Source: Phocaeicola vulgatus ATCC 8482 (GTDB lineage: Bacteria; Bacteroidota; Bacteroidia; Bacteroidales; Bacteroidaceae). From it: a stretch of DNA of 64,000 nucleotides. The translations under genes were made by a program, and so were the position numbers. Every line of letters starts with the position of its first letter. The stretch's first letter is position 1. The DNA lies in NCBI RefSeq assembly GCF_000012825.1, contig NC_009614.1, positions 1,674,001 to 1,738,000 on the forward strand. The letters run 5' to 3'. Of this stretch, positions 44,392 through 61,778 are shown piece after piece. The notes under the pieces are model-generated. The model had not been told where the DNA came from, made no database searches, and worked only from the letters and a program-made list of their open reading frames with translations.

Positions 44392-44883
44392 ATGGATGCT
44401 CTATTTCAAACGCAAAGCAATGAGCTTTCTACTACAACGCAGAAAGAAAAGCTGTTTAAAGATGCAGAACGGCAGTGGAATACACTGTCTACCGAGAAAG
44501 GAGCGCCCGGAAGAAAAGTTGATTTTGAGATCTATAAAAGCATTTTGTATAACCTAGAAATCAGAAAAGTATATTTGGATTCAAAACTCTCTTTAGAAAA
44601 GTTTAGTTCAATAGTCGGCACGAATACGACCTACCTGAGTAATGCGGTGAACAACTACTTCGGATGCAATTTCAAGCAGCTCCTTAACAAGTATCGTGTT
44701 GAGTATGCAAAGTCCTTATTACTAGAGGGTACGTATTCAGCCAGTTCTCTTTTTAGGAAGTGTGGTTTTGCATCCCAAAGTGTTTTTTATGCCGCATTTC
44801 ATAAAATTGTAGGCGCATCTCCCTTGCAGTTCCTATATAAAGCACCATCCGGACACAGAAAAAGATTTAAAGTCCTTTTATAA
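44392..44883 (+). CDS. AraC-like regulator, expressed copy of the switch
   Basis: A 163-residue protein with an uncharacterised N-terminus (1-60) and an AraC-type double helix-turn-helix: first helix-turn-helix about 66-100 (LEKFSSIVGTNTTYLSNAV), second about 115-150 (SASSLFRKCGFASQSVFYAAF). Codons 75-96 coincide with the 62-bp inverted repeat shared with the headless copy at 61431. Recombination there would keep residues 1-85 or so and replace the rest, in frame. It precedes the surface-protein gene by 48 bp and is driven by the fixed promoter at 44323. It probably controls its own operon; this is inferred. Confidence 0.85.
   Translation: MDALFQTQSNELSTTTQKEKLFKDAERQWNTLSTEKGAPGRKVDFEIYKSILYNLEIRKVYLDSKLSLEKFSSIVGTNTTYLSNAVNNYFGCNFKQLLNKYRVEYAKSLLLEGTYSASSLFRKCGFASQSVFYAAFHKIVGASPLQFLYKAPSGHRKRFKVLL
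44616..44677 (+). repeat. Left copy of the 62-bp inverted repeat (recombination site candidate)
   Basis: Starts CGGCACGAATACG and ends CAATTTCAAGC. It is identical, base for base, to the reverse complement of 61628-61689. Flanking sequence differs immediately on both sides: upstream completely, downstream within two bases although the protein remains homologous. Such a sharp perfect block inside diverged homologous genes indicates recent exchange or a maintained recombination site. Confidence 0.9.
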
Positions 44884-44900
44884 CAATAACATTTTGAGTT

Positions 44901-44920
44901 TTTAAATTTATAAATTTAAA
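44901..44920. promoter_or_regulatory. 20-bp perfect palindrome in the leader of surface-protein gene A
   Basis: TTTAAATTTA followed by its exact reverse complement. The same palindrome lies at 61381-61400 before gene B, within about 95 bp of near-identical sequence running from the end of the regulator into the signal-peptide codons. It could be an operator for the regulator or a leader structure for an abundant message. Confidence 0.6.
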
Positions 44921-44931
44921 GTTTTTCTATT

Positions 44932-47900
44932 ATGAACAAAAAATTTTTAAGTGCAATCCTGTTTGGAGCCCTTATGGTCACTTCAACAGGAACATTTGTA
45001 TCTTGTAAGGATTACGATGACGACATCGACCGCTTGGATCAAGAAATATCCAATGTGAAAGATGCAATCAAGGCCCTTGAAGACAAAGTAGGCTCAGGCA
45101 AATATGTCGAAAGCTGTACTCCGTTCACTGATGGTAATGGTGGTTATGAAATCAAATTCAGTGATGGAGAGACCATTAAATTATACAATGGTGCAAAAGG
45201 AGAACAAGGTGAACCGGGCAAACCAGGTACTCCGGGTACTCCAGGTACTTCTGCTGATGATTATGTAGTATCAGTAGAAGAAGGTGAATCAGCTTATGAA
45301 TTAGTTATTACTTATGCTGATGGCACTAAAAAGACTATCAGTATGCCTAAAGCTACTTCTGTAGTTAGCGGAGTTAAGTTTATCCCTACTTTCCTTTCTG
45401 AAGGTGAAGCTGCCAGAATCCATTTCCCTACCATCGTTACTGATAGTGTGGCAGGTAAAACAGAGATTACAGGTGCAGATTGGGGTACAAATAACTTTAG
45501 CACATTTAAAATCGTTTACTCAGGTAAGGCAGACGTGAAGTATCAGGTAAATCCTAACAGCGTATCATTCAAAGATATGGAAGTGGTAGGATTTGTTCGT
45601 GATACTGCTGAAATATGGAACTACAATACGAATAACAAGAATTGGGAATTGTTCAACGCTGGACAAAAACTGTACACTGATGGAAAAATTACCGTTGAAT
45701 CTTATAAAGAAGGACATGGTATGTTAAACTTCCGTGTAAAGGACTGGGCTTTTGCTGAACAATCTAATCTGGACGAAAGAACAGTATATTCATTGAGAAT
45801 TAAGAACAATGACCAAATCGTTCATTCTGATTTTGTTCCCGCCAAGCATGAAGTAATTTTGCAGAAAAACGTACATTTGGTTAAAGTAGCTGATGCATTT
45901 GACCAAACTAACGCTCCTGCTCAGATTAAAAATGCAATTGCTCCTAACAAGGTAAATTATAGAGAATTCATCAAAGATGAATATTATCTTAACACCTTGA
46001 ATCCGACCGGTACTGAAGAGGCTAAATTGAAGGCTTATCAAGCAGATAAAGCTAAGTTCGAAGCCAATGCTGAAAACCAGTTATATAAAGGAGATGCTGA
46101 ATCTAAAGATGATGCAGAACGTATTGTTGTAGAATTGAACTATACAGGTGATGGACATTCAAAAAATTTGAAGGACATCGTAACTTCATTCTTTGACAAA
46201 CGTATGGGTAGAGCCCAAGACGCTCAGTATCCTTTGATGGAGAATGGTTTTGATGACTATTCATTGGTGTTTGAACCGGTTGACTTCTATTATGATGGCG
46301 TTAACCAGACAAAACGTTATTTGGATGTTACCAAAGATGGTGTTGCTACAGTAAAACAAACTCCGGACCCGATTTGGGGCGCAGAAACTGATGCCAGCCA
46401 CACAGCTGCTATAGACAGAACTCCTATTGTTCGTGTGAAACTGGTAGCACCGGGTGAAGACAATGGTAATGTAGTTAAAACAGCAATCATCAAGATTCAC
46501 ATTGTACGCAAGACAGTTGTTCCTGAAATTAATATTACAGAAACAAAAGACGTCACTCTGAAACATATCAATCAAGTTCTTGACATGGATATGGATAAGA
46601 TATTCAACCATAAAGATGTACAGTTGAGTAAAGACGAATTCCGTAAGACTTATGATTTCGTTCCTGAATTTGCAACAGCAGATGAGGCTAAACAACACGC
46701 TGTATATGCATGGGATGGAAAAGATAATGCAGACTATTCATTAGATCCGAACTTTAAACCTGAAGAATACAATCAGTTGTTCGTTACAGTGAAGAATACA
46801 GCATTCTCTCGTCATGACGATCACGACGTTTACACTGTTAAGGGTACATACAAGCCAAATGCTGATCATAAGGGATTATCTGACATCCATGTTACTTATA
46901 CTATCAATGTGAAGTATCCGGATGTAGTTGCTCCTGAAAAGACTAAGTTGAACTGGGTAGATGATTCTTACTTCATTGCTCACGGTAGATACGATAACTT
47001 TGATGCTCCTACAACTTATGAAATGGTTGCAGTATTGAATGACGAGTTCGATTTGATCAACTATAATCCTTATAAGGGTCAGACTCATGATAAGGATTGG
47101 GCTAGAGCTACCTTGTCATTCGAATTGGTTGACCAGCATAATAACGCATCTAAGATAGTTGACGGTCACAATTCCGGCATCCGTTTGTATCAAGGTAAAG
47201 ACAACAAGTGGTATATCGCTTTGGAGGCTACAGACGAAGGACGTGCTTGGATCAATGCTGCTGACGCTAAGGATTTGAAGAAGATCAAAATGCGTGCCGT
47301 AGTAAGCTTCAATGAAGATGTTGACGGATTGTATGGTACTTGCAACAAGGAAGCCAATGCTCATAACAAGTATGCTAAAGAAGATTACAATAACTTCTCT
47401 TGCGATACTATCAATATGGTAAACAATACTCCTTGGGCTAAAGATCATACTACTACTTATACTGGTGCTCCTGCTCCTGAAAATGGACGTTCTACAGTGG
47501 TTATCGATGAATTTGAAGTTGCATTTGTAACTCCGATGGTATTCCACGCTTACGAAGCAGGTCCTTTGTATGACAAGTATCAGGAAGCTGAAAATACAGT
47601 ATCATTGAAGGATGCATTCTTCTTGTCAGATTATCTGTGGTCTGAAGGTGCTCAGGCACAATTCAATAACAACCATGTTATCTATGATCACAAAGATATG
47701 GCTAAGAATAATACTTTGGTTCAGACAGGTGATCAAGCTGGTTGGTCAAAGAAACTGGTAGTTGACCATAATGTATTCGATGTTAATACAACTGTTAACT
47801 TCAAGGTTTCTAAGGCATACTTTGCTGACGGAAGTGAACTGGATGCTGAAAACATGAAGAAGATCAAACTTGATAATGCTAAGCAGACTATCACATGGAT

Positions 47901-48057
47901 CAACAATGGTGAAGATATTGCTCAACCATTTACTATTGATGTAGAAGTTTGTGTAAATCACAAGTGGGGCGGTATCTGCGACCATACTTGGAAGAATGAT
48001 CGTGGACATTCTGTTGGAACTATCCAAATCCAAGTTAAGAAGCACAATGACAAGTAA
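44932..48057 (+). CDS. Surface-layer-like lipoprotein A (expressed copy)
   Basis: A 1041-residue exported lipoprotein; the N-terminal signature MNKKFLSAILFGALMV to FVSCKDYDDDID (lipidated Cys near 25) is shared with protein B at 58643 and, from memory, with the phase-variable surface-layer protein family of Bacteroides. After the lipobox come a short coiled coil (about 33-56) and a collagen-like G-x-y stretch (GEQGEPGKPGTPGTPG, about 100-115). The remainder is beta-rich, Ig-like sequence with no catalytic motif. Downstream of the regulator in the same transcript and followed by a terminator. A structural surface coat role is inferred; a glycan-lyase-related N-terminal domain name is sometimes given to such proteins. 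Confidence 0.8.
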   Translation: MNKKFLSAILFGALMVTSTGTFVSCKDYDDDIDRLDQEISNVKDAIKALEDKVGSGKYVESCTPFTDGNGGYEIKFSDGETIKLYNGAKGEQGEPGKPGTPGTPGTSADDYVVSVEEGESAYELVITYADGTKKTISMPKATSVVSGVKFIPTFLSEGEAARIHFPTIVTDSVAGKTEITGADWGTNNFSTFKIVYSGKADVKYQVNPNSVSFKDMEVVGFVRDTAEIWNYNTNNKNWELFNAGQKLYTDGKITVESYKEGHGMLNFRVKDWAFAEQSNLDERTVYSLRIKNNDQIVHSDFVPAKHEVILQKNVHLVKVADAFDQTNAPAQIKNAIAPNKVNYREFIKDEYYLNTLNPTGTEEAKLKAYQADKAKFEANAENQLYKGDAESKDDAERIVVELNYTGDGHSKNLKDIVTSFFDKRMGRAQDAQYPLMENGFDDYSLVFEPVDFYYDGVNQTKRYLDVTKDGVATVKQTPDPIWGAETDASHTAAIDRTPIVRVKLVAPGEDNGNVVKTAIIKIHIVRKTVVPEINITETKDVTLKHINQVLDMDMDKIFNHKDVQLSKDEFRKTYDFVPEFATADEAKQHAVYAWDGKDNADYSLDPNFKPEEYNQLFVTVKNTAFSRHDDHDVYTVKGTYKPNADHKGLSDIHVTYTINVKYPDVVAPEKTKLNWVDDSYFIAHGRYDNFDAPTTYEMVAVLNDEFDLINYNPYKGQTHDKDWARATLSFELVDQHNNASKIVDGHNSGIRLYQGKDNKWYIALEATDEGRAWINAADAKDLKKIKMRAVVSFNEDVDGLYGTCNKEANAHNKYAKEDYNNFSCDTINMVNNTPWAKDHTTTYTGAPAPENGRSTVVIDEFEVAFVTPMVFHAYEAGPLYDKYQEAENTVSLKDAFFLSDYLWSEGAQAQFNNNHVIYDHKDMAKNNTLVQTGDQAGWSKKLVVDHNVFDVNTTVNFKVSKAYFADGSELDAENMKKIKLDNAKQTITWINNGEDIAQPFTIDVEVCVNHKWGGICDHTWKNDRGHSVGTIQIQVKKHNDK

Positions 48058-48081
48058 TTAATACGCTCATTGTTTATAAAA

Positions 48082-48117
48082 AAAGAGGGGGGCAAAATGT
48101 TCCCCTCTTTTAGTTTT
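48082..48117 (+). terminator. Terminator of the surface-protein A operon
   Basis: AAAGAGGGG (48082-48090) and CCCCTCTTT (48102-48110) form a stem followed by TAGTTTTT. Confidence 0.9.
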
Positions 48118-48145
48118 TATAATCGTTTATCCAATTATATTGTGT

Positions 48146-49261
48146 ATGAAGTATATATATGCTGTCTGTTTTCTGTTATTAGTATGTGGCTGTCATAAAG
48201 AAAATGACACCCCTGTTGTTTTACCTGCACGGACACTATTGGTTTATCTGGGAGGAGATAATAATCTTGATGCCGAAACCTATGACAAACTTGTTCAAAT
48301 TAAAAATGGATGGGAAGACGGGACAGATGGAAATATAATAGTGTATCAGGATACACCATTTAAGGACTCTCCACGATTGATGGAAATTGATGGAAAAAGT
48401 GAGAAAGGCTATATTACCATACATACCTATGACCAAGAAAACTCAGCCTCCCCCCAAGTGCTTAAACGAGTTATAAACGACGTAACTCGGCTTTATCCTG
48501 CTAAAAGCTACGGTCTAATCGTGTTTTCCCATGGCAGTGGCTGGCTTCCTCCACATACATTGGTTAATGGCTCGCGGTCTATCATCATCGATAATGACAA
48601 TGAAATGGAAATAACAGATTTTGCCATGGCCCTCCCGGACCATTTATTTGAATTCATAATCTTTGAAGCATGTAATATGGCAGGTATTGAGGTGGCTTAT
48701 GAATTAAGAAATAAAGCAGCATATATCATGGCTTCCTCTGCCCCAGTAGTATCTCCGGGATTTACTCCTATCTATGCCGGCAGTATTTCCTGTCTGCTTG
48801 AAGAAAATGCTGATTTGCAAAAATTTGCAGAAAATTATTTTCATTATTGGAATTTGATGGAAGGCGATAAACGTTCTGCTACCATTAGCATAATAAAAAC
48901 TGCCGGATTATCAAATTTAGCGAATTTGATACGACAGATCAATACAGAAGCATCCGGCTCTTTTCTCCCAGTCGGTAACCTTCAAAATTATGATGGAGTT
49001 TTAAAAGCCCCATTCTATTTTTTTGATTTCGCTCAATATTATCAATCATTATCAGATGAAAATACATACAATGCACTTCAAGAGTGTATCAGCCAATGTG
49101 TGGTTTACAAAAGAAATACTCCTTTTTATGCTACGGAAGAAGGAACATTCCCTATCACCGCCTTTTCAGGTATGACCACTTTTATCATGCAGAGAGAACT
49201 TAATGACTTGAATGAAGAATATACAAAACTACAATGGTATAAAGATATTAATACACATTAG
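48146..49261 (+). CDS. Clostripain-related (C11) cysteine peptidase lipoprotein
   Basis: A 371-residue lipoprotein (lipobox LLVCGCHK, Cys near 16) of the C11 clostripain family. The catalytic His is in IVFSHGSGW near 130 and the Cys in IFEACNMAGIEVAYEL near 172-187, preceded by the typical LVYLGGDNNLD start near 33. C11 enzymes cut after Arg or Lys and often mature surface proteins. The ATG at 48146 is preferred over a TTG at 48140. It follows the surface-protein A terminator by about 30 bp. A role in processing the surface protein is only suggested by position. Confidence 0.85.
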   Translation: MKYIYAVCFLLLVCGCHKENDTPVVLPARTLLVYLGGDNNLDAETYDKLVQIKNGWEDGTDGNIIVYQDTPFKDSPRLMEIDGKSEKGYITIHTYDQENSASPQVLKRVINDVTRLYPAKSYGLIVFSHGSGWLPPHTLVNGSRSIIIDNDNEMEITDFAMALPDHLFEFIIFEACNMAGIEVAYELRNKAAYIMASSAPVVSPGFTPIYAGSISCLLEENADLQKFAENYFHYWNLMEGDKRSATISIIKTAGLSNLANLIRQINTEASGSFLPVGNLQNYDGVLKAPFYFFDFAQYYQSLSDENTYNALQECISQCVVYKRNTPFYATEEGTFPITAFSGMTTFIMQRELNDLNEEYTKLQWYKDINTH

Positions 49262-49526
49262 AGAATATGTATAACACTGACAAACAATGATATAGCAAAT
49301 TCAGTAGAAGAAGTATATCTTATTGCAGAATAGATAGATTCTAAATACTTTTCAAAGTATCCTTTAAAGGACAGAATGCCAATATATATGGACAGAAACA
49401 GGTGATTATCCATTAATAAGAAACGGAAAAACTTGTCATAAGCAGAAAAAACAAATCCTTTATTTGCTTTGTTTGTCATTTACTAATATCTTTGTTTTAT
49501 CATTCATTCTAGAACCGCAACAAAAT

Positions 49527-51137
49527 ATGAAATACCCTATTGGAATACAGAGTTTTGACCAAATCCGTGAAGATGGCTATGTATATGTGGATAAGACCGG
49601 TTTGATTTACAACTTGGTAACACAAGGCAAGACTTATTTCTTGAGCCGTCCACGCCGTTTTGGCAAAAGCCTGCTGGTAAGTACCCTTGCCTGTTATTTC
49701 CAGGGACGCAAAGATTTGTTTGCCGGACTGGAAATCGACGGATTGGAAAAGGACTGGTATGAGTATCCTATCTTCCGTATAGACTTTAATGGAGGACTGT
49801 ATACACAACCCGGAATTCTGGAGGCTACCATTGAAGGCTATTTAGGAAACTGGGAAGATATTTATGGCAAGAATCCCAATTATACAACCATAGGAACCCG
49901 TTTCATTGAAATACTTCGCCGGGCTTATGAACAGACAGGGCGGCGTGCGGTGGTTCTGATTGATGAATATGACAAACCTATTTTGGATGTATTAGATACG
50001 GAAGCTTGTTTTTATGATGATTATGGAAAGCAAGTTCTGTTGGAGAACCATAACCGGGAAATATTGAAATCCTTTTATTCTACCTTTAAAGGAGCCGATC
50101 AATACTTGAGATTCGTATTGTTGACCGGAGTAACAAAGTTTTCCCAAGTAAGTGTTTTCAGTGGATTTAACCAGCCTAAGGATATCAGTATGGATGAACG
50201 GTACGAAGCCTTGTGCGGTATCACCCAGAATGAGCTGGAAGCATTTTTCGAAGAACCCACCATACAGTTGGCTGCTAAATATCAGTACACAGTGAAAGAA
50301 ATGAAGGAACTTCTCAGACGGCAATATGACGGATATCATTTTGGAGAGAGGATGACTGACATTTACAATCCGTTCAGCATTCTTAATGCTTTTGACAGTA
50401 TGGCAATTCGTGATTACTGGTTCTCTACAGGTACTCCCACCTATTTGGTTCGTCTGCTGCAACACAGCCGCGAGCAGATAAACGAACTTGCCGGACGTTA
50501 TTATGTTCCCTCTTTGTTTGTGGATTATAAGGCTGATGTGGAACAGCCTCTACCCATGATTTATCAGAGCGGATATCTCACTATTAAAGAATATAATAGA
50601 CGTATGGGAACTTATCTGCTCGATTTTCCCAATAATGAGGTGCGTAAAGGGTTCTTGTCCGTATTGGCAGCACATTATTTGAAACCCGGAGGTGGAGAGG
50701 TCAACAGCTGGATTATCGATGCTGTTACTTGCCTTGAGCAAGGGAACACCTCCGCTTTTTGTGATTCTCTGACCGCCTTTCTTGCAAGCATCCCGTATGA
50801 CTCTCACGCTTCCTTGAAGGAATTGGATATGACTGAGAAACATTTCCAATACACTTTTTATCTGATTCTCCGTTTGATAGGAGTTTATTGCCGTGCAATC
50901 CATTGTGAGAATCGCCAGAGCTTCGGACGAGTGGACTGCATATTGGAAATGGACGAATATGTTTACATTTTCGAATTCAAGATGGACGGAACAGCAGAGG
51001 AGGCTTTACAGCAAATAGCAGAGAAAGGCTATGCCCGATCTTATTTGACCGATGACCGTAAAATAGTCTGTATCGGGGTGAATTTTTCTTCCCTTACACG
51101 TACTGTGGAAGAATGGAAGGAAATAATTTACAGGTAA
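49527..51137 (+). CDS. AAA-ATPase-like protein with C-terminal PD-(D/E)XK nuclease domain
   Basis: A 536-residue protein of a group repeated many times in Bacteroides genomes (AAA-ATPase-like plus PDDEXK_9 domains). It begins MKYPIGIQSFDQIREDGYVY, then a P-loop variant FLSRPRRFGKSLL near 38, Walker B VVLIDEYDKPILD near 146, and ends with the nuclease core GRVDCILEMDEYVYIFEFKM near 475-495. Upstream in-frame codons from 49464 precede the obvious start. Function is unknown; roles in DNA mobility or defence have been guessed for the family. It is a single gene between the protease and fimbrial genes. Confidence 0.88.
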   Translation: MKYPIGIQSFDQIREDGYVYVDKTGLIYNLVTQGKTYFLSRPRRFGKSLLVSTLACYFQGRKDLFAGLEIDGLEKDWYEYPIFRIDFNGGLYTQPGILEATIEGYLGNWEDIYGKNPNYTTIGTRFIEILRRAYEQTGRRAVVLIDEYDKPILDVLDTEACFYDDYGKQVLLENHNREILKSFYSTFKGADQYLRFVLLTGVTKFSQVSVFSGFNQPKDISMDERYEALCGITQNELEAFFEEPTIQLAAKYQYTVKEMKELLRRQYDGYHFGERMTDIYNPFSILNAFDSMAIRDYWFSTGTPTYLVRLLQHSREQINELAGRYYVPSLFVDYKADVEQPLPMIYQSGYLTIKEYNRRMGTYLLDFPNNEVRKGFLSVLAAHYLKPGGGEVNSWIIDAVTCLEQGNTSAFCDSLTAFLASIPYDSHASLKELDMTEKHFQYTFYLILRLIGVYCRAIHCENRQSFGRVDCILEMDEYVYIFEFKMDGTAEEALQQIAEKGYARSYLTDDRKIVCIGVNFSSLTRTVEEWKEIIYR

Positions 51138-51434
51138 GATTTAGTCATAGTCAGCCTAAAGCGTTAAACAAAAGATTGCCTTCCACTATTTTTTATGGGA
51201 ATATACCGGTAAGAATGTTCATGCTGTTGCCGGCATAACACATTTAATTTTCATCTTTTTATCATTTTGTTTTTCTTTTTGCTAAGAATGAATTATTTTC
51301 GCAGCCGAACACAAGTTTAATTTCTTACCGACAATAAGCAGACATGCTTTAATCCTCGACCAATTCAACTTGTCCTCATTTTAATTTTAACGGATAAGCT
51401 GATGTTTTGTCCCTCACTATTATAAAATAAAAGA

Positions 51435-52430
51435 ATGAAAAGATCACTGTATGTATCGCTATTGACGATCATGTACTTCTCTGCCTGCCAAGGTAGTGAG
51501 GAACTAGAGCAATCACAAGAAAAAGAGTACACGGTATCCATTATGGCAAGAATCGGGAAAACAGTTTCCGGAGCACGCTACTTGCAAGATCATGAAAATG
51601 CCATCGCTAGTTTTAGTAAAACCGATGATATAGGTGTTTTTATGGACAATGACAGCGCCGTCCGCTGGATATTCGATGGAACTTCCTGGACTACAGAAAA
51701 GAGTGTCTTTTGGAAAGATAAAAACCAGGAACATACTTTTTACGCATATTATCCCCACTCCGGTTCCAAAGCCGAAAGTAAGGAAAATATAAAAATGCCT
51801 TCTCTCGACAGCCAGAACGGGACTTGGGAAAATATTGACCAATATGACTTTCTAGTAGCATCCAGGAAGCTTTCCTACGATACCGACCTTGGCAATGTGG
51901 CCTTTTCGGGCGATTATTCATTTAAGCACGTTTTGTCACTATTAAAGATAAACATAAAGGGTGAAGGAGATATGGCACAGGCCGTTATTGACAAAATCAG
52001 ACTTGAAGGAAATGGGTTGACGACCCAAGGATACTACTCCTTTGAAACGAACAGCATCACCATCAGCGAAACTCCCAAGGAAACCTTCCAGATTACTCCG
52101 TCACACACCATGAACAATCAGGATGCTTCTTTTTATTTTATCCTGAACGGGGACGAGAATGACGGAAACATTGATCCGAAAGCCGTGAAAAACCATTCTG
52201 TTAATCTCACCATTGAATATACCCGTAACAACAAATATTACATAACACGACGAGACGACCTGTCTCCGGGCTTATTGTCCGGATGTATTCATAAATACAA
52301 TATTGTAGTAAAAGACGGAAATGTAATTATAACGGGAGGAAGTATTTCGGGTTGGACTCCGGGAAATGAAGAAGAGGATATAGTTATAAATGGAGAAGAA
52401 ATAAACCCACAAACAAATAATATGTTATGA
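51435..52430 (+). CDS. Fimbrillin-family lipoprotein
   Basis: A 331-residue lipoprotein (lipobox MYFSACQG, Cys near 18) with the Mfa/fimbrillin-like pattern. Visible parts are IGVFMDNDSAVRW near 75, HTFYAYYPHSGS near 105, YDFLVASRKLSYD near 138 and FSFKHVLSLLKINI-like strands near 160, all typical of Bacteroides fimbrillin-like proteins. It would be a surface-assembled pilus subunit processed by an Arg-specific protease, as in Porphyromonas; here this is inferred. Its stop overlaps the next start by 4 bp (ATGA), so the two are translated together. Confidence 0.8.
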   Translation: MKRSLYVSLLTIMYFSACQGSEELEQSQEKEYTVSIMARIGKTVSGARYLQDHENAIASFSKTDDIGVFMDNDSAVRWIFDGTSWTTEKSVFWKDKNQEHTFYAYYPHSGSKAESKENIKMPSLDSQNGTWENIDQYDFLVASRKLSYDTDLGNVAFSGDYSFKHVLSLLKINIKGEGDMAQAVIDKIRLEGNGLTTQGYYSFETNSITISETPKETFQITPSHTMNNQDASFYFILNGDENDGNIDPKAVKNHSVNLTIEYTRNNKYYITRRDDLSPGLLSGCIHKYNIVVKDGNVIITGGSISGWTPGNEEEDIVINGEEINPQTNNML

Positions 52431-53743
52431 ATTATAGATTAACCGAATTAAAGGTGCTTCTGTTTCTATTGCTGCTGTCTGCTGTTTCTTGCCAACGCCC
52501 GATGTATGATGAAGAAGACGATGAAGACGGAGTCTCGCAAACAAATCTTCCTTTAAAGATATCTGCCAGGTCTAGCGGAGAATCCCAGATTAATTATCCG
52601 GCCTATATCTATGCGTTTGCAGAGGACGGCAGCTGTTCTGCCAGTCTGAAAATGACAGATAACGCCCAGATTGAAATGAAGTTACCTCCTGCCCGATATA
52701 CTATTGTTGCAATAGCCGGTTTGGGAGAGGAATATATCGTTCCGAAAGATCCTAGCCTTGATGATGTAATTGTTATGAAAGAAAATAACAGAAGCTCACG
52801 CGCGCTAATGATGGGCACTTCAACTGTGACAATTGCCAATAAGAAAAATATATCTGTTTCTGTAACCCTCTATTATGCTGTATCTTTAGTTAATATCAGT
52901 TTGGAAGATATACCGGCAAACGTTAAAAAGGTGAGTTTGCAGATTTCGCCTTTATATTCTTCCCTGTCGTTTACAAGGGAGTATTCCGGCAAAGACAAGA
53001 GTACGGAAATTATTTGTGAGTCTGAGCCGGGTGGAATTTGGAGTGCAAAGCCTTTTTATATTTTTCCGGGGAGCGGCTCTCAGACCGTTTTTTCCATAAC
53101 CTTGGAAGATAATAGTCAGACAAAGACGTTTGGATACACTTTCAAAGGAAAGCCGGAAGCGAACGTGCCATTGAATATCGGGGGCAGCTATTCGGGTGAT
53201 GTCACGGTAGGAGGCAGTTTGATATCAGGTGAATGGAAGGCTCCGGTAGATATCAAATTCAATTTTGGCGGTGCTGATGAAGGTAATGGCGGTAGTGAGC
53301 CGCCTCCCATTAATCCGGATCTTTCCGGGCTACCCGAAATTGGCGGTATCTGGAACGGCGGTATTGTAGCTGGCATAGAGGATGCAAGTTCCACAGGGGC
53401 GGATATTTTGTTGATGAGTCTGGATGAGTGGAGTGGATTCGCTTCCGATGTGCGGAATATCATACAGGAGGAGGAAGCAGACGGATGGCATCTTCCGACT
53501 GAAGAGGAGGCAAAAATATTGCATAAGACGTTCAGCGGATCATCACTGGATGAACTGAATGAAACCATAGAGGGATTAAGAAACGGAGACCCGTTATTGG
53601 ATATTGAGAAACGGTATGTATATGATCATAACGGGAGCATATATGCATTCGGATTTAAAACCTCATCCAAATTTTTACAGGCAGGGAGTACGGTGAAATA
53701 CAAAATACGTTTGGTATGCAGCGCTCATTATGATGCCGGATGA
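52427..53743 (+). CDS. Fimbrial anchor/tip-like lipoprotein with LPTEEEA-type C-terminal domain
   Basis: A 438-residue lipoprotein (lipobox LLSAVSCQRP, Cys near 22). Residues about 40-280 look like the FimB/Mfa2 anchor family: repeated beta strands, YTIVAIAGLGEEY and the pattern RALMMGTSTVTI near 125. A Gly/Pro-rich linker (GGSEPPPINPDLSG, about 287-300) leads to a separate C-terminal domain (about 305-438) with GIWNGGIVAG, DGWHLPTEEEA and a terminal YKIRLVC that resembles the exposed domains seen on Bacteroidetes surface proteins. This may be a tip adhesin. Operon partner of the fimbrillin upstream. Confidence 0.75.
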   Translation: MNYRLTELKVLLFLLLLSAVSCQRPMYDEEDDEDGVSQTNLPLKISARSSGESQINYPAYIYAFAEDGSCSASLKMTDNAQIEMKLPPARYTIVAIAGLGEEYIVPKDPSLDDVIVMKENNRSSRALMMGTSTVTIANKKNISVSVTLYYAVSLVNISLEDIPANVKKVSLQISPLYSSLSFTREYSGKDKSTEIICESEPGGIWSAKPFYIFPGSGSQTVFSITLEDNSQTKTFGYTFKGKPEANVPLNIGGSYSGDVTVGGSLISGEWKAPVDIKFNFGGADEGNGGSEPPPINPDLSGLPEIGGIWNGGIVAGIEDASSTGADILLMSLDEWSGFASDVRNIIQEEEADGWHLPTEEEAKILHKTFSGSSLDELNETIEGLRNGDPLLDIEKRYVYDHNGSIYAFGFKTSSKFLQAGSTVKYKIRLVCSAHYDAG

Positions 53744-53765
53744 CCCATTCATATACTAGAAAAGG

Positions 53766-53808
53766 GCATTCACACTTCTTGACAATATATGCTTGAGAGT
53801 GTGAATGC
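53766..53808. terminator. Hairpin between convergent fimbrial and vapE genes
   Basis: GCATTCACACT (53766-53776) and AGTGTGAATGC (53798-53808) are perfect 11-bp inverted arms between two convergent genes. No T-run follows. Confidence 0.45.
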
Positions 53809-53870
53809 GTCTAATCGACTTCCATACCGGGAATCTCATTTCCATAGATAAATTCTCAATTAATTGAAAG

Positions 53871-55484
53871 TTAACATTCTACCACCCGGTATACATTTCC
53901 CTTGGTGGTATGTACCCGTTCGCCCAGCTGGGGCAGGATACGGCTCAGGCTGTAGGCGGTCATCCCTCTCATGATCGAAGGATGAGCGGCCTTCATGCGT
54001 TCAAACAGTTGGGTGGCGGAGAGGCTAAGCACTTCCTGCGGATTGTCCTCTTCTGTAGCAAAGCGAAAGCAAAGGCGGAATACCTCTTCTTCGGGTACAT
54101 GCTTGTAGAATAAGGCATTATGTTGCTGTATAGTCTGTTCCTCTTCTTTATTGAACCAGCTTCGTTCACCGGATAGAAGTTCTGTTTTAAGCTGGGCGTA
54201 CAATTGCTTATGCTCTACGGACGTGGTGCAGTCTATGGCATGCTTCAGACTGACGCAAAGAAAGCGGCGTGAGCCGGTGCGGTCTACCAGCAAATCCTCC
54301 CGGTTGCTGGTGCCGATGAACGAGGCAATACGGGGAAGCGATGAAGCGCTGTGTTTGTAAGCCTTGCGGATATTCAGTGCGGAGGCTTGCATCAGGTTCT
54401 TCAGCAAAGGCATTTTGGACGCACCTAGTTTGTCGAATTCATCCAGGTTGATTAATCCGTAGGCAGCCAGCTTGGCTTCGGCGGATGTCGGGGAGCTTAG
54501 GTCGTAACTTTCCGTGTAGTAGGATTTCAGCCTATCGGGCATCAGCAGACGGCAGAACGTACTTTTCCCCAATCCCTGGCGACTGCTCACCAGCAGGGGA
54601 GCCACACTGTTGGCGCGGTTGTTATCCGGATTGAGCTGCATCCATTGGGCAGAGAGTCCCAGCATCCAACGGTGGAAACCGTTCACCCATACCGGGTCGT
54701 CGGACACCCTGCGTGCCAACGCGGACACCCGGTCCGTGCCGTCCCATTCGGGAAGCTGCTCAAAATAGGCAGTAAAGGGATGGTATTCACTGATGCGGCG
54801 TGAGCGCACAAAGCGTTGAATGTCCCTGTCCCAACAGTCTATGCCCGTTTCAATAGCCTCCAGACTTAGTGAGTTCATCCATCGTTCGTCCACCTTGGCG
54901 TAACGCAGATGAGTATCGGGAATGTTGTTTTCTACACTTGCCACTTCAGTTTCTTCAGTAAGCACATTGAACCGGAAGCGGTAGCGGGAGGTGAGGAAAG
55001 CGGTCACTTCCTGCATCAGGGTATGTGATTTCGCCTTCTTGCCAGTATCTTCTGGGGAGGTTGGTCCCGCTTTTTTCTGAACATCTTTTTTCAAGTGAGC
55101 GGAATCCTTCTCTGTCTTTTCAGTTGAGACTGTCGGATGTGTCCGAGAATCGTCCATACTCCCCGGCAGGTTATCCTTACCGTTTTCAGTGAGAAGAACC
55201 TGTGAGTCGGCCATCTCTCTTACTCCGTCTTCGTCCGACACGATGTAGTGGTAACTGCCCGTGGGAGCATTCCCGTCGGTGCGCGGAGTCCAGTTCAATG
55301 CCAGAACTACTTGACCCTCGCGGATATCCAGCGCCAGACGCACGCCGGGTATAGTCCGGCAAAGCGGCATCAGCCCGTTGAGAGCGGATACGAGATCACG
55401 ACGCGGTGTTCCGTCAATAGGAACAGGGCTTGACAGGAATTTGCTTCCGAAGAAGACTGTTTTGAGAGTAGCGAATACATTCAT
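53871..55484 (-). CDS. VapE-family P-loop protein (copy 2)
   Basis: A 537-residue protein of the VapE family. Residues 1-95 form an N-terminal domain missing from copy 1 (resembling the VirE/BT4734-like N-terminal domain), then a charged Lys/Ser-rich linker (about 100-155) and the ATPase core. Here the P-loop is intact (RQGLGKSTFCRLL, near 300), with Walker B INLDEFD and sensor SFIGTSNRED. The core is clearly homologous to copy 1 throughout. It sits inside the invertible segment, convergent with the fimbrial genes, behind a promoter and a large quasi-repeat array. Related ATPases work with primases in phage and plasmid replication; the actual role is unknown. Confidence 0.85.
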   Translation of the reverse strand: MNVFATLKTVFFGSKFLSSPVPIDGTPRRDLVSALNGLMPLCRTIPGVRLALDIREGQVVLALNWTPRTDGNAPTGSYHYIVSDEDGVREMADSQVLLTENGKDNLPGSMDDSRTHPTVSTEKTEKDSAHLKKDVQKKAGPTSPEDTGKKAKSHTLMQEVTAFLTSRYRFRFNVLTEETEVASVENNIPDTHLRYAKVDERWMNSLSLEAIETGIDCWDRDIQRFVRSRRISEYHPFTAYFEQLPEWDGTDRVSALARRVSDDPVWVNGFHRWMLGLSAQWMQLNPDNNRANSVAPLLVSSRQGLGKSTFCRLLMPDRLKSYYTESYDLSSPTSAEAKLAAYGLINLDEFDKLGASKMPLLKNLMQASALNIRKAYKHSASSLPRIASFIGTSNREDLLVDRTGSRRFLCVSLKHAIDCTTSVEHKQLYAQLKTELLSGERSWFNKEEEQTIQQHNALFYKHVPEEEVFRLCFRFATEEDNPQEVLSLSATQLFERMKAAHPSIMRGMTAYSLSRILPQLGERVHTTKGNVYRVVEC

Positions 55485-55512
55485 GAGTTACTTTTTTAAG
55501 TTTGGCAAACTA

Positions 55513-55543
55513 CAAATATACAACATAAAAAGGCGTTTGTCAA
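55513..55543 (-). promoter_or_regulatory. Promoter of vapE copy 2
   Basis: On the minus strand TTG (55543-55541) and TATATTTG (55520-55513) are 20 bp apart. The -33 region reads TTGACAAA as in copy 1. Confidence 0.75.
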
Positions 55544-55566
55544 GAGGGGGCGGAAATATGGCAGAT

Positions 55567-56747: not shown

Positions 56748-56814
56748 GAAGGTGTGTCGTAATGCACGATGCACCTCTTTTTTGTTCATCACTATACAAA
56801 TCTGTTCATTTTCT

Positions 56815-58470
56815 TTAAGCTGCGATCTTTTGAAGATTTCTTTGATTTATGTGTTCCCAGCATCTAAAAACAGCAGTTGTAAGCTTATAAAACAGTCTAA
56901 TCAGCCAGTTCATACCTTCTTTTGTCAGTTTTGCACACATCTTTTTTATATTGAAGGCAATGGCTAGGAAGGCAAAGTCCATGAAGACCTTGTCCTTTCC
57001 AAAATGTCGGAAACGTTTGTAGTTCATATTGTTTTTAATTTGTCCGAACACGGCCTCCGGTTCTATGCATCTCTGCCCTCTGTGTTTCAGTCCTTTCTCA
57101 GAGCAGAGCAGTTCTTTGGCTCTCCGCTTGTATTGTCTAAGCCTATGATTCAGTTCTATCGTCCTGTTTCCTTTTGCTTTAAAACAGCGGCATCGCAGGG
57201 GACAGCCTTCACACCTGACAGCTCTGTACCGTGCATTTTCGCTGACATATCCGGATGCTGTTTTCACATTCCTGGTGCCTATCCTCCGCATCCTTTGCCC
57301 CATAGGGCAGATGCAGAAGTCATGTTCTTCATTGTAGTAGAAGTTTTCGGCCTTGAACGGGTCCGGTTTGAATCTCGGCCGCTGCTCCATGTGGAAATAG
57401 TTGTACTTTACGTAGGCTTCCATGCCGTTTTCGGACATGAAGCGGTAATTCTCTTCGGAGCCATAGCCGGAATCAGCAGCCACCGTATGGGCCATCCGGT
57501 CATACCTGTTTGAAAAAGATTGCAGGAAAGGAATCAGGGTCAGTGTATCCGTAGGGTTCGGGAAGAGTGCAAAATCGGTGATGAACTGATTTTCGGTGCC
57601 GATTTGAAGGTTGTAACCGGGCTTCGTCTGTCCGTTGCGCATGGCATCCTCCTTCATTCTCATAAAAGTAGCGTCCTTGTCCGTCTTGGAATAGGAATTC
57701 CTCTCTTGCAGCGTTTCCGGATGGCAGTCGTATTCCTGCAGTTTGTCCCTGTGTTCTTCCAGTTCCTTCAACTGTTTGCGTTTCTTTTTCAGTTCAGTCT
57801 TTTCCTCTTTCGCGGATGGCTCGGAAACCTGTTCCAGTGCATGACGCAATTCTCCTGCCATTTCAGTCAGCATGGCCGGAGTGAACCCAACCTCCTCATT
57901 GTTCTCTGATGACTTCTCCCGGGCAATGACATCGTCTATCTGCCCTAACAGGACATGTATCTTCTTCATCAGGCGTTCACGGTTCCGCTCAACCGTTTTT
58001 CGCCAGACGAAAGTGTACTTGTTGGCTTTGGATTCGATCTTTGTCCCGTCAATGTATTCCACATTCAGGCTGATGAAGCCTTTGGAAGAGAGAAGAAGTA
58101 CGGTTTGCGTAAACACCTCGTTGATTTCCTTCTTCACCCGGTTGCGGAAACGGTTGATGGTAATGAAATCCGGTTTCTCATATCCGGCCAGCCAGATATA
58201 ATGGATGTCACGGTGAAGGAGCTTTTCAATTTTCCGGCAGGAGTAGATGTTGTTCATATAGGCATACAGAATTACCTTGAGCATCATCCTGGGGTGGTAA
58301 GGGCTGCGGCCGCATTCCTTATACAGCTTTCTGAAACTTTCAAGATTCAAGCCCTCAACCAGGGCGTCAACCATGCGCACCGGATCGTTTTCTGCAATAT
58401 CCTCATCAATTCTTTGAGGAAAAAGAACGGTTTGGTTGGGATTGTAAGGACGAAAATGTATCTTTGTCAT
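56815..58470 (-). CDS. IS1182-family transposase
   Basis: A 551-residue DDE transposase, full length and uninterrupted. N-terminal DUF772-type domain: FRPYNPNQTVLFP, YHPRMMLKVILYAYMNNIYS near 58-77, LLHRDIHYIWLAGYEKPDF near 83-101. Catalytic Asp candidates lie in NVEYIDGTKIESKANKY near 138 and AADSGYGSEENYRFM near 330, and the Glu in CIEPEAVFGQIKNNMNYKRF near 478. A cysteine cluster (CEGCPLRCRCFKAKGNR, about 425-441) is typical of this family. Related by domain, but not closely, to the other transposase in the window at 19714. Confidence 0.92.
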   Translation of the reverse strand: MTKIHFRPYNPNQTVLFPQRIDEDIAENDPVRMVDALVEGLNLESFRKLYKECGRSPYHPRMMLKVILYAYMNNIYSCRKIEKLLHRDIHYIWLAGYEKPDFITINRFRNRVKKEINEVFTQTVLLLSSKGFISLNVEYIDGTKIESKANKYTFVWRKTVERNRERLMKKIHVLLGQIDDVIAREKSSENNEEVGFTPAMLTEMAGELRHALEQVSEPSAKEEKTELKKKRKQLKELEEHRDKLQEYDCHPETLQERNSYSKTDKDATFMRMKEDAMRNGQTKPGYNLQIGTENQFITDFALFPNPTDTLTLIPFLQSFSNRYDRMAHTVAADSGYGSEENYRFMSENGMEAYVKYNYFHMEQRPRFKPDPFKAENFYYNEEHDFCICPMGQRMRRIGTRNVKTASGYVSENARYRAVRCEGCPLRCRCFKAKGNRTIELNHRLRQYKRRAKELLCSEKGLKHRGQRCIEPEAVFGQIKNNMNYKRFRHFGKDKVFMDFAFLAIAFNIKKMCAKLTKEGMNWLIRLFYKLTTAVFRCWEHINQRNLQKIAA

Positions 58471-58514
58471 AGTAAAGAACTTATGCTTAAAGATACAAAG
58501 TCTTTAGGTAATAA

Positions 58515-58546
58515 CAAAGCCCCAGCTTGTGAAAGTCGGGGCTTTG
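58515..58546 (-). terminator. Insulating hairpin inside the right end of the IS1182 element
   Basis: CAAAGCCCC (58515-58523) and GGGGCTTTG (58538-58546) form a perfect 9-bp stem between the right terminus and the transposase start; on the minus strand it is followed by TTATTACC. It would stop transcription entering from the surface-protein B gene. Confidence 0.75.
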
Positions 58547-58642
58547 TGCGTAAAAAACAGAAGGTGTGCATTTTGACACACCTTCGTTCTTTATAGAGTA
58601 ATAGAAAGAATATACATTTAAAGCATAATCTATTCTTCTATG

Positions 58643-61369
58643 TTATCGTTTGTTAACAGTCATAGCAACTTTAATTATTACATCGTGACCATACATATCC
58701 TTGCACTTGATAGTCAATGTAGAAGGAACAGCAGCAGTCGGATTCGTTTCAGAAGACAAAGCAGTAGCCTTGAAACCTGTAATATGCTTATTATTATCTA
58801 TAATTACATCAAAGTATTCTTCTTCACCATTTGCATCACTGGTCAAAGTCGCATCTGTAATAATCAGACTTGATTCATAAGGTGTACTTAACAGTTTGCT
58901 ATATCTGCTATCTTTAGCACTTGTTCCAAAAATGAAGCTGTCAGCAGCAAAGTCAAGACGATCTGTACCATAAGTTAATTTTGTAGACGGCATTGCAGTG
59001 GTATAATTACCGTCGCTATCCTTATCTGTATACGGAGCGCCTAATTGTTCGCGAGTAGCCCATGCCCAAGTATAAGTGCTATTATAAATACAGTTGTAGA
59101 TAGTTTCAAATCTTTCAGCTTCTCTAGTTACATCATCATAACCACCTTCAGAATTCTTCACTGAAGAAATCTTACCATAGTTGTAAACCACTGTAGTGGT
59201 ATGTTTAACTGAGTTGTTGATGTAATCTTTAGCAACTTCTAATGTTTTGTCTCCGGCAACTACTACAGCAACATCTTTATTTCCATCTTTCTTAGATGTA
59301 GCGAATGTTATGTTATAGTTAGCGGCAGCACCTGTACCATAGTTGAATACTTCAGACATCTTCATAGAACCCTTTGTAGCTGTTTCAGCTGTCCAAGCGA
59401 TATCATTGGCGTCATTCATAGGAATCATGTAACAATTATAGATGCCATCAGTAACCTGTGCAGTTTTAACAGAGAATCCCGCAGGAATAGTAGTAGGCAA
59501 TACCTTAGTCATAGAAACTTTCATAGTGGCTAATACATGTCCTGAAGCATTCTTGATAGTCAATGTTCCATTATAAGTTTTGTTATCTTCATACTTGGTC
59601 CAGTCATCAACAGTCGGAACAGTATAAACTTTGGCAACCTTGCTGAAATCTGCCGGGAATGTATTTGGAGCAGCTGTATTGTACAGTACATTATTATTAG
59701 CATCAACAAAGATAGCATTGAATGCAGGATTTACATTATTAACCTTGTCTGTAGTCCAAGTAGCAGCAGTCGGAGCAGTTAACTTAGTCAAAGACACAGC
59801 AACCTTATCTGACTGAGTGTCAGTAACAGCTTTGTCAGTCGGATTAAGTGCAGTAACAGTAGTGGCAGTAGCATTCCAATCTGTAGCAGCATTACCTAAC
59901 TGCACATAAAACGCTTTACCATCAGGATCAACTAAAGTACCATCAAAGTTTACAGCATATACACGGAAACCAATAACATCATTAATAGCCGTAGTGCTGT
60001 TGATGGTAATTTCTGTAGAAGTACCTTCAACCACTGTATTCAAACCAGAATAAGTATAGCTATTCCATGCATTCAATTCAGACGGTGCAGATTCTACCGC
60101 ATTAGCCTTATCTAAAACTACATAAATACCACGGATATTTACCGGAGCTGTTACTTTATCATCGGCTGTAGACAAAGCAATTTTGATAGCCTCTCCTTGT
60201 ACTGCAGGATATAATTTTTGAGTTTGACGGTCGTCTCCGTTATCTACTTTAACATTTGTATTAACCTTATCTAAAGGAATAATGGTAGTAGCCGCATCAC
60301 TCTTCCAAGCTAATTCTTGATATGTTACATTAGTACCATCTTCTGCTTTAGTGAAACGATTATGAATATCCTTGACGTTTGTTGCATCAACAAAATAGTT
60401 TAAAGACTTTTCACCTACATATTCAGTCCAATCCAAAGTTAAGTCATAAGATGAAATAACTTCTCTTGTTTCAGCAGTAGACAAGGTGTTATTTACCTGT
60501 ACAGCAAAGAGAATAGATTCAGTATCATTGCCAACTTTGGTTTCTGTTACAGCAGAAAAAGCTTTTTCATCATAATTCTTCAAAGCAACTGTAACTTCCC
60601 ACAATCCGTTGTTTCCTGCCGCACGGCTTAATAATCCATTATATTTCTCAACTTTCTGAACAGATAAAAATTCATTCAAGTTCTGTCCTTGGCTATTAGT
60701 CAAAGAAATCATATCAGGAGTAAGAACCGCATTTGTCGGAGATACACGTACTACAAACTTGTCACCAGTCTGAACTTGTTTACCCTTAGTAAATGTTATA
60801 GCATTTGTAATACCTTCACTAAATACGTTTTCTTTTTCAATAGCAGTGGAGAAAATCAATTCATCGCCTGTAGGATTAGCAGAATACGAAGCCACCAGTT
60901 CTACACTAGTAACCATATCAGCAATCTTGCCTACAATGTCTTCTACTTTCTTAGTGGCAGCATCAACTTTTTCTGCCATTTCTTTCAATGCTGCGTCAGT
61001 GGATTCTTCTACTTCTTTTTTCAATGTCTCAATTTCTGCTTGTACAGCTTTGATTGCTTCTGCCTTTGCATCTGCAACAGCTTTGTCTGCAGCGGCTTTT
61101 GCAGCAGCGGCAGCATCACCAGCAGCTTTTGCAGCGGTTTCAGCGGCAGTTGCTTTAGCAAGAGCATCGCTTGCATCTTTTGCAGCAGTAGTTAAAGCAG
61201 CTTGCAAAGTAGCGATCTGAGAAGTCATGTCCTCCTTAGTCGCCAGTTTGTTAATTTGTTCCTGCAAATTGTCTATGTCATCATCATAGTCTTTACAAGA
61301 TACAAATGTTCCTGTCGAAGAAACCATCAAGGCTCCGAACAGGATTGCACTTAAAAATTTTTTGTTCAT
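58643..61369 (-). CDS. Surface-layer-like lipoprotein B (silent copy)
   Basis: A 908-residue lipoprotein sharing the first 30 or so residues with protein A (MNKKFLSAILFGALMV, FVSCKDYDDDID). It then diverges: an alanine-rich coiled coil (about 33-155; TKEDMTSQIATLQAALTTAA, AADKAVADAKAEAIKAVQAE) replaces the collagen-like stretch, followed by a beta-rich region to the end (TIKCKDMYGHDVIIKVAMTV). No enzyme motif. It lies behind a headless regulator fragment with no promoter, so it should be off in this orientation and on after inversion. It closely resembles the Bacteroides phase-variable surface-layer proteins, from memory. Confidence 0.8.
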   Translation of the reverse strand: MNKKFLSAILFGALMVSSTGTFVSCKDYDDDIDNLQEQINKLATKEDMTSQIATLQAALTTAAKDASDALAKATAAETAAKAAGDAAAAAKAAADKAVADAKAEAIKAVQAEIETLKKEVEESTDAALKEMAEKVDAATKKVEDIVGKIADMVTSVELVASYSANPTGDELIFSTAIEKENVFSEGITNAITFTKGKQVQTGDKFVVRVSPTNAVLTPDMISLTNSQGQNLNEFLSVQKVEKYNGLLSRAAGNNGLWEVTVALKNYDEKAFSAVTETKVGNDTESILFAVQVNNTLSTAETREVISSYDLTLDWTEYVGEKSLNYFVDATNVKDIHNRFTKAEDGTNVTYQELAWKSDAATTIIPLDKVNTNVKVDNGDDRQTQKLYPAVQGEAIKIALSTADDKVTAPVNIRGIYVVLDKANAVESAPSELNAWNSYTYSGLNTVVEGTSTEITINSTTAINDVIGFRVYAVNFDGTLVDPDGKAFYVQLGNAATDWNATATTVTALNPTDKAVTDTQSDKVAVSLTKLTAPTAATWTTDKVNNVNPAFNAIFVDANNNVLYNTAAPNTFPADFSKVAKVYTVPTVDDWTKYEDNKTYNGTLTIKNASGHVLATMKVSMTKVLPTTIPAGFSVKTAQVTDGIYNCYMIPMNDANDIAWTAETATKGSMKMSEVFNYGTGAAANYNITFATSKKDGNKDVAVVVAGDKTLEVAKDYINNSVKHTTTVVYNYGKISSVKNSEGGYDDVTREAERFETIYNCIYNSTYTWAWATREQLGAPYTDKDSDGNYTTAMPSTKLTYGTDRLDFAADSFIFGTSAKDSRYSKLLSTPYESSLIITDATLTSDANGEEEYFDVIIDNNKHITGFKATALSSETNPTAAVPSTLTIKCKDMYGHDVIIKVAMTVNKR

Positions 61370-61380
61370 AATAGAAAAAC

Positions 61381-61400
61381 TTTAAATTTATAAATTTAAA
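61381..61400. promoter_or_regulatory. 20-bp perfect palindrome in the leader of surface-protein gene B
   Basis: Identical to the palindrome at 44901-44920 and at the same distance from the start codon. It lies in the second block of shared sequence (61338-61432, matching 44870-44963 with few differences). Confidence 0.6.
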
Positions 61401-61430
61401 AACTCAAAATGTTTATTGTTATAAAAGGAC

Positions 61431-61689
61431 TTAATTGCGTTGAACCATAAAAGGATTCCGACTCTGCGATATATATTGCAGGGGAGTCATGCCAACCACT
61501 TTTCTGAACGCCACATAGAACACGCTCTTGGAGGCGAACCCGCAACGGCTGAAAAGCTCATTCACCGGGCAATCTTTACCGTCCAGCAACTCCTTCGCGC
61601 GAACCACCCTGTAAGAATTTATTAACCGCTTGAAATTGCATCCGAAGTAGTTGTTCACCGCATTACTCAGGTAGGTCGTATTCGTGCCG
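61431..61689 (-). pseudogene. Headless AraC-like regulator cassette (3' half only)
   Basis: Encodes the C-terminal part of a regulator homologous to residues 75-163 of the protein at 44392, including the second helix-turn-helix (NELFSRCGFASKSVFYVAF). The homology begins exactly at the 62-bp repeat; in the matching frame there is a TAG about 20 bp upstream and no ATG. The only possible start is a GTG at 61658 (75 codons). It is best read as a storage cassette: joined to the N-terminal part at 44392-44615 it would give an in-frame regulator of about 160 residues. The 62-bp repeat places the crossover inside the first DNA-binding motif. Confidence 0.85.
61628..61689 (-). repeat. Right copy of the 62-bp inverted repeat (recombination site candidate)
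   Basis: Perfect reverse complement of 44616-44677. It lies 85 bp from the 3' end of the tyrosine recombinase gene. Left of it (towards 61627) the coding sequence diverges from the other copy; right of it there is no homology at all. Confidence 0.9.
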
Positions 61690-61751
61690 GATACTATACA
61701 GTAATACTAATTGTTTGAACACCAGTTATATGTGTGACAACTTTAATGATG

Positions 61752-61778
61752 CAAGGGCCGTTTCAGGTCCTTTTTTAT
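61752..61778 (+). terminator. Terminator facing the recombinase gene end
   Basis: AAGGGCC and GGTCCTT flank a short loop and are followed by a T-run on the plus strand. It would stop plus-strand transcription leaving the invertible segment before it runs antisense into the recombinase gene; the same stem could serve the recombinase message. Confidence 0.5.

Follow-up and report, generated by a model that had tools for sequence, protein, structure and literature searches.

A probable DNA-inversion cassette switch for surface lipoproteins that divides an AraC-type regulator gene in Phocaeicola vulgatus

Layout of the locus

In the genome of Phocaeicola vulgatus ATCC 8482 (contig NC_009614.1; G000 in our numbering of genomes), two gene cassettes, each coding for a surface protein and for the 3' half of an AraC-type regulator, face each other at the ends of a 17-kb segment. 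All positions given here are those of the window, i.e. the whole stretch of 64,000 nucleotides that was analysed. On the basis of sequence comparison, we propose, with a probability of roughly 0.86, that the locus is a site-specific DNA-inversion cassette switch, or two-cassette shufflon, for surface lipoproteins. The segment is bounded by an inverted repeat of 62 nt (44616-44677 on the forward and 61628-61689 on the reverse strand), whose arms were 100% complementary and separated by 16,950 nt in a repeat search of the window. A search of the whole genome, a single-contig assembly of 5,163,189 bp, gave these two full-length copies only, and two further matches elsewhere were partial (82-87% over 39-49 nt). 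The left arm falls within the open reading frame (ORF) of the regulator (44392-44883, forward strand, 163 aa) and begins with the last base of codon 75; the right arm opens a headless regulator 3' half. The regulator has the double helix-turn-helix (HTH) of PF12833, matched at residues 73-148, and its Foldseek matches were AraC-type domains (best E of 4.6e-5).

The surface gene of cassette A (44932-48057, forward strand) codes for a protein of 1041 aa with DUF4988 near its N-terminus and occupies the expression slot, and that of cassette B (58643-61369, reverse strand) codes for a protein of 908 aa with no promoter-like site facing it in this assembly. We take both products to be lipoproteins; their putative label as surface-layer (S-layer) proteins rests on a common leader, on this lipoprotein form and on resemblance to annotated phase-variable loci. 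A sequence search of the PDB with both proteins gave no match, and the predicted structure of surface protein B (mean predicted local distance difference test, pLDDT, of 38) was too poor and was not used. The AT-rich leader ahead of the surface genes (44870-44931 on the forward and 61370-61432 on the reverse strand) is near-identical in the two cassettes and better conserved between them than the regulator half that precedes it. The leader region forms a second inverted repeat, of 160 nt and 89% identity.

Upstream of the left cassette there is a promoter-like site (44322-44352, forward strand), with CTTG at 44322 and TACTTTTG at 44345-44352, which we take to be a promoter from the Bacteroides consensus; over a distance of 600 bp ahead of the right leader, no TAnnTTTG was found. 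The ORF of a tyrosine recombinase of 372 aa (61775-62893, reverse strand) lies next to the right arm and beside what is presumably a ruvB-like gene. It is full length and has both a catalytic and a SAM-like core-binding domain (PF00589, 5.4e-19; PF13102, 3.2e-17), as well as PF17293. The first-pass annotation of this DNA had described a perfect 62-bp inverted repeat around two inward-facing regulator/surface-protein cassettes, a promoter at the left one only and a tyrosine recombinase just outside; we reproduced each of these features, the coordinates of the repeat included.

The split regulator and its cassettes in related genomes

The fixed 5' half of the regulator comprises codons 1-75 (44392-44616, forward strand) and was found by tblastn once per multi-cassette locus. 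The 3' half in cassette A (44617-44883, forward strand) has 88 codons; that in cassette B (61431-61688, reverse strand) has 85 codons and a stop, without a start or a promoter-like site, and its stop falls just ahead of the second surface protein. When the left 5' half was joined by script to cassette B, an in-frame regulator of near-equal length was obtained, ending just before the surface-protein leader. The structural model of the regulator (mean pLDDT of 82) places helices at residues 68-75 and 79-90, and the 7-bp spacer CGGCACG, made up of the last base of codon 75 and of codons 76-77, falls at the turn between them. As the crossover would thus lie at the turn of the first HTH, the cassette would supply the second, recognition helix of that motif together with the whole second HTH. 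Outside such loci, TNQTYL is encoded at the crossover position by seven paralogous regulators, of which five belong to the window's genome, one to G029 and one to G058, and the codons used for it vary.

In the mechanism that we propose, the tyrosine recombinase would exchange strands within the CGGCACG spacer of the two inverted sites and the 17-kb segment would invert, replacing the regulator 3' half and everything downstream of it; the fixed promoter and the regulator 5' half would stay in place. Each flip would rebuild a complete, in-frame AraC-type regulator and bring one surface lipoprotein and its accompanying genes behind the promoter, and the other cassette would be left without promoter or start. 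The rebuilt regulator may then activate its own promoter, possibly through a direct repeat of TATTCCT, and the regulator and the surface protein would be switched on together; we put the odds of such auto-activation at about even. That the recombinase acts, that the segment inverts within one strain and that transcription follows, we infer from the sequence. The TATTCCT repeat (44268-44292, forward strand), a candidate regulator-binding site, consists of two copies at a distance of 18 bp and is located 53-77 bp ahead of the -7 box; no other pair with a distance of 15-25 bp occurs in the window, whichever strand is read. Both copies are kept in the window, G010, G029, G030 and G044; the second is degenerate in G021 and G013, and was not seen among the fixed halves compared from other genera.

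Comparison of the silent regulator halves supports the view that they are intact and under selection, i.e. that they are used. All 25 complete 3' halves that were read, 19 of them silent in their assemblies, are open with the second-HTH core (GFxSxSxFY). The ratio of nonsynonymous to synonymous substitution rates (dN/dS) was 0.07-0.20 in nine of ten comparisons of these halves, including pairs silent in both assemblies; in the tenth, between A and B, dS was saturated. The silent half of the window gave 0.11-0.13 against three G010 copies. For comparison, pairs of surface proteins gave 0.14-0.40, and the fixed half of the window against that of G010 gave 0.52, from three differences only.

The same rearrangement could also serve the regulator rather than the surface protein: exchange of its 3' half would alter the DNA specificity and the set of genes controlled, and the surface protein would be one target among them. 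The origin of the first recognition helix and of the whole second HTH from the cassette would agree with such a role, as would the divergence of the related 3' halves A and B (dN of 0.36 over 84 codons). However, the second-HTH core is kept in every half compared, and three of the four G010 cassettes carry a near-identical regulator half next to differing surface proteins. We consider this explanation unlikely, although it is the alternative that survives best.

The evidence that cassettes are exchanged comes from related genomes. The nearest named records are Phocaeicola sartorii JCM 17136 and Bacteroidaceae bacterium IMSAGC_004, whose main matches to the locus are ~85-97% identical; G029 and G030 were treated as these two records, the contigs and positions being the same. 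With the right flank as a query, some match was obtained in 25 of the 61 genomes of the genus, and the locus was recognised in eight, namely G000, G010, G013, G021, G030, G044 and G058 by the core sequence, and G029, whose contigs end just short of the core, by the recombinase and the fixed half. In the complete genome G010, one fixed 5' half is followed by four cassettes in the orientations + - + - and then by the recombinase. There, the counterpart of the surface protein expressed in the window belongs to the third cassette, which is silent (95.6% identity over 1041 columns), and that of the window's silent protein to the second, also silent (68.7%); the G010 expression slot holds a third surface protein with no orthologue in the window. 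Six cassettes (+ - + - + -) stand behind one fixed half in G021. Contig C80 of P. sartorii is colinear with the third-fourth cassette pair of G010 (96.6% over 7,562 bp), and on those contigs of G029 and of G030 that stop at the repeat or leader there are, per genome, four more starts or ends of surface genes, which we infer to be cassettes. Contigs of the P. sartorii and IMSAGC_004 drafts end at the repeat. We did not accept these breaks as proving that both orientations are present, since repeats by themselves can interrupt short-read contigs. Within the G021 locus, the surface proteins of cassettes 1 (expression slot) and 6 (last) are 99.8% identical and represent a duplicate.

It had been proposed from the window alone that inversion would connect the promoter side and the regulator 5' end to the other cassette. 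This proposal gained support from the predicted in-frame fusion, from the cassettes found in different slots of relatives, from the matched 7-bp crossover and from the intact, selected silent halves. As in a shufflon, inverted sites flank alternative coding ends and a recombinase is positioned beside them (only a fragment of it in G021). Because the window has two sites, and G010 and G021 have four and six cassettes, respectively, we call the window locus shufflon-like and these relatives shufflons.

The two-cassette form of the window looks reduced. Cassette A is joined to the middle block of the segment over the 10-bp AGAATATGTA at ~49262 (junction at 49252-49272, from comparison with G010), where G010 has further cassettes, and interior cassettes seem to have been lost by a microhomology event. 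Such a loss, together with the insertion sequence lying within the segment, might suggest that the repeat and the headless cassette are relics, either of a former switch that has become fixed in this strain or of a duplication that never inverted. This is quite improbable in view of the identity of the repeat copies (62 of 62 positions), the full-length recombinase ORF with its Pfam domains, the intact silent half with its low dN/dS against the G010 copies, and the presence of the same cassettes in other slots in G010.

Other genes would be carried along by the proposed inversion. A clostripain-family (C11) protease gene (48140-49261, forward strand) travels with cassette A, as the third G010 cassette aligns up to its end. 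The middle block (49464-55484), with an AAA-ATPase/PD-(D/E)XK gene, Mfa1/Mfa2-like fimbrial genes and a VapE-like gene, is located between back-to-back sites in G010; within it, the Mfa1-like fimbrillin and Mfa2-like anchor genes occupy 51435-53743, and their G010 orthologues lie likewise between such sites. The insertion-sequence transposase (DDE_Tnp_1_6 in the domain search) is at 56815-58470 on the reverse strand.

One-cassette forms, promoters and the crossover site

A family-wide pattern search for the 21-bp core, with up to one mismatch, had matches in 12 of 399 genomes, and the reversed-pattern control had none; the cassette site was present in nine of the 15 genomes of genus g9, again with none in the control. 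Several of these loci in other genera have a single cassette. The fixed half is joined to the cassette (ON) in G231 and G136 of genus g9, and the OFF form is found in G152, G166, G118 and three loci of G070, all of genus g9, and in G156 of genus g15. In the OFF form the fixed half runs to a stop or out of the cassette reading, and the cassette is inverted on the far side. Thus nine one-cassette loci were read at both ends, two ON and seven OFF; G244 (cassette on the recombinase side, one end read) and G257 and G270 (cut by contig ends) were left unscored. Two contigs of G270 have the first 141 bases of one cassette in common, and here again a break caused by the repeat alone was the reason for leaving the locus unscored. 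OmpA-family genes were noted inside two one-cassette invertible segments (L146, 14772-15899; L148, 3246-4337).

The position of the promoter-like site relative to the crossover is well kept. TACTTTTG stands 271-280 bp upstream of it in all seven Phocaeicola fixed halves, and TAnnTTTG stands 210-227 bp upstream in eight of ten fixed halves of other genera, the exceptions being G152, without TAnnTTTG at that distance, and G156, with one only at 139 bp. Since this site is fixed, the locus does not belong to the BT1927 type of short invertible promoter. Five paralogous regulator/surface-protein operons of the same genome (L071-L075, on contig C1 near 1645k, 1796k, 1854k, 1958k and 1464k) have inverted arms like ATCTCTTANTAAGAGAT, ~185 bp apart, around a promoter-like site; these are candidate invertible promoters, all facing away in this assembly. 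We read 33 paralogous operons in four genomes: five of five outside the locus in G000, five of five in G010, ten of ten in G021, and 13 of the 20 leader matches in G013, which include its own switch. A repeat pair was found upstream of the regulator, not in the leader, in 26 of the 33, and in each of these 26 candidate invertible promoters the sole TAnnTTTG enclosed by the repeats is directed away from the operon (OFF); in random 160-bp stretches, the motif occurs on a given strand in 8% of draws. Among the seven operons without a repeat pair, three are cut by contig ends and two, both of G013, show one arm only and lack TAnnTTTG. Operons L191 (no regulator detected) and L193 of G021 have a forward TAnnTTTG and no repeat pair, so that G021 may have further facing promoters; these two operons are possibly not phase-variable. 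Apart from the cassette locus, no member of the family in G000 and G010 has a promoter-like site facing it.

These observations bear on the possibility that cassette B has a promoter of its own in the AT-rich leader, in which case both surface proteins would be made together and inversion would matter little. The near-identity of the leader between the cassettes would be in line with this, but TAnnTTTG is lacking upstream of the B leader, as described above, and the predominant place of candidate invertible promoters in the paralogous operons is upstream of the regulator. The probability of this explanation is as slight as that of the relics.

The core site of a tyrosine recombinase consists of two inverted arms around a spacer of 6-8 bp that is identical in partner sites. 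Such an arrangement, with imperfect arms, is found in the window: the expression-side site (44609-44629, forward strand) reads CAATAGT, spacer CGGCACG (44616-44622), AATACGA, and the recombinase-side site (61676-61696, reverse strand) reads TAGTATC, spacer CGGCACG (61683-61689), AATACGA. A perfect 7-7-7 dyad, TAGTATT-CGGCACG-AATACTA, is present at the recombinase-side sites of G021 and G152. The spacers of partner sites are identical in 12 of 12 loci (30 sites), with four spacer types, usually CGGCACG; at the three loci of G070 they are GGGTACA, GGGTACG and GGGCACG, each matched within its own pair. These three (L220, L221 and L222) appear as separate one-cassette switches, all OFF. Partner sites of the ON/OFF loci have the spacer and some arm bases in common and little beyond, and in the window and G010 the common sequence starts at the spacer. 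Within each genome, the copies of the 21-bp core are identical; over positions 22-56 of the repeat, identity is 0.94-1.00 between copies of one genome and averages 0.65 between genomes. Viral contigs had no exact match to the core pattern, and a site-like match at 37629 of G021 was dropped as a chance match inside another gene. Taken together, the sites support a crossover within the 7-bp spacer matched between partners, and strand exchange is most likely carried out by the neighbouring tyrosine recombinase. The alternative of RecA-type homologous recombination between the repeats, with no site-specific recombinase, could draw on the second, 160-nt inverted repeat in the leader region, on the homogenisation of the repeat within genomes, which is compatible with gene conversion, and on the longer common sequence at the interior G021 sites, but it is the least probable of all, because the partner sites of one-cassette loci are alike in so little, spacers match between partners while arms differ, and, in the window and G010, the spacer is where the common sequence begins.

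Several points weigh against site-specific inversion as we propose it. The case is built on comparisons between species, and no change within one strain was seen. The arms of the window sites are complementary at only five of seven positions on the recombinase side and three of seven on the expression side, and at the interior sites of G021 ~100 bp upstream of the spacer are common as well. The shuffling that backs the spacer match, in which none of 200,000 label shuffles equalled the identity in 12 of 12 loci, ignores ancestry. GGGCACG was found at the fixed-half sites of G070 and G118 after the cassette sites had shown it, by a pattern search that allowed C or G and three mismatches and whose reversed control had four matches; for that reason we rely on these sites as read, each with a regulator half in frame before it, on the same contig as the cassette and inverted to it. 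The recombinase was not found in the stretches read at G156 and at two of the three G070 loci, and beside the G021 sites there is only a C-terminal piece of 59 residues (contig C4, ~353-358 kb, L100). Another part of the G021 recombinase matches on contig C2, and two other recombinase-like ORFs follow the piece, suggesting an integrated element; recombinase identities between genomes were taken from tblastn.

Known inversion systems and the meaning of a split regulator

In the S-layer system of Campylobacter fetus, the vsa system of Mycoplasma pulmonis and the slpA/slpB system of Lactobacillus acidophilus, a silent surface-protein gene is swapped with the expressed one by an inversion of kilobase size. 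They belong to other phyla; we know of no split regulator in any of them, and their recombination sites, to our knowledge, are different. In Vpma of Mycoplasma agalactiae and in the R64 shufflon, the crossover takes place within the surface gene itself or ahead of it, and not in a gene for a transcription factor. Both resemble the present locus in having several silent cassettes and one site-specific recombinase (PMC5634654 for Vpma, PMC11852207 for R64), and the C. fetus and M. pulmonis systems are named in the second of these papers.

Promoter inversions, shufflons and gene-moving inversions have been described in Bacteroidales (PMC12118408, PMC12548429, PMC11868660, PMC10939037, PMC13114119, PMC12632263, PMC8375218, PMC11852207). 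Nutrient-receptor shufflons of Bacteroides are run by a single transcription factor (PMC12548429), and the invertase Tsr0667 shuffles SusC/SusD genes in B. fragilis (PMC11852207). The SusC/SusD and outer-membrane-protein shufflons of B. fragilis and B. thetaiotaomicron are similar to the proposed switch in that recombinase-driven inversions move silent genes for surface products into an expression locus; here, however, the crossover would fall inside the transcription factor gene, and the cassette would bring the other half of the factor together with a surface lipoprotein. Phase-variable surface lipoproteins are known from the BT1927-type S-layer of B. thetaiotaomicron (PMC12548429), whose switch flips a promoter (PMC12118408, PMC12548429). 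The five paralogues in the window's genome, with their candidate invertible promoters, are of that style, whereas at the locus itself the promoter is fixed and coding segments of at least 3 kb would invert. Inverted repeats, a nearby integrase and OmpA-family genes were reported in PMC12118408. Invertible intragenic regions, called shufflons, occur in gut Bacteroidales genes including regulatory ones (PMC10939037), and the passages of that paper covered here, its tables excluded, describe no split AraC-type regulator with surface-protein cassettes.

The first-pass annotation had suggested that an inversion of this size, through a regulator gene, may be new. The size is incidental, given the reduced form of the window and the one, four or six cassettes found elsewhere. 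As to the route through the regulator, no inversion of surface proteins or exchange of cassettes through an AraC-type regulator was found in the literature searched, which is weak evidence of absence, as most subscription papers, all preprints and supplements were outside its scope. Since no such exchange is described in the Bacteroidales inversion literature covered, a shufflon that splits a transcription factor may be the new element, surface-protein shufflons being known.

The loci compared here might belong to a wider family. Tentatively, and at slightly less than even odds, we suggest that Bacteroidaceae possess a family of split-transcription-factor switches with the site in the HTH turn, in which only a productive inversion would yield a working activator that turns on its own coat. 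One-cassette forms would mostly rest OFF, multi-cassette forms would keep one coat ON with the promoter-inverted coat operons OFF, and different 7-bp spacers would insulate parallel switches.

In gut Bacteroidales, resistance to phages and to complement has been linked with surface-layer switching (PMC12118408, PMC12548429). Cutting a transcription factor in two would represent a different logic, in which one exchangeable coat is on and the regulator is rebuilt with each flip. With an exactly defined spacer and with ON and OFF forms that occur naturally, the proposed switch is directly testable, and the differences between spacers suggest how a cell may keep several inversion systems apart.

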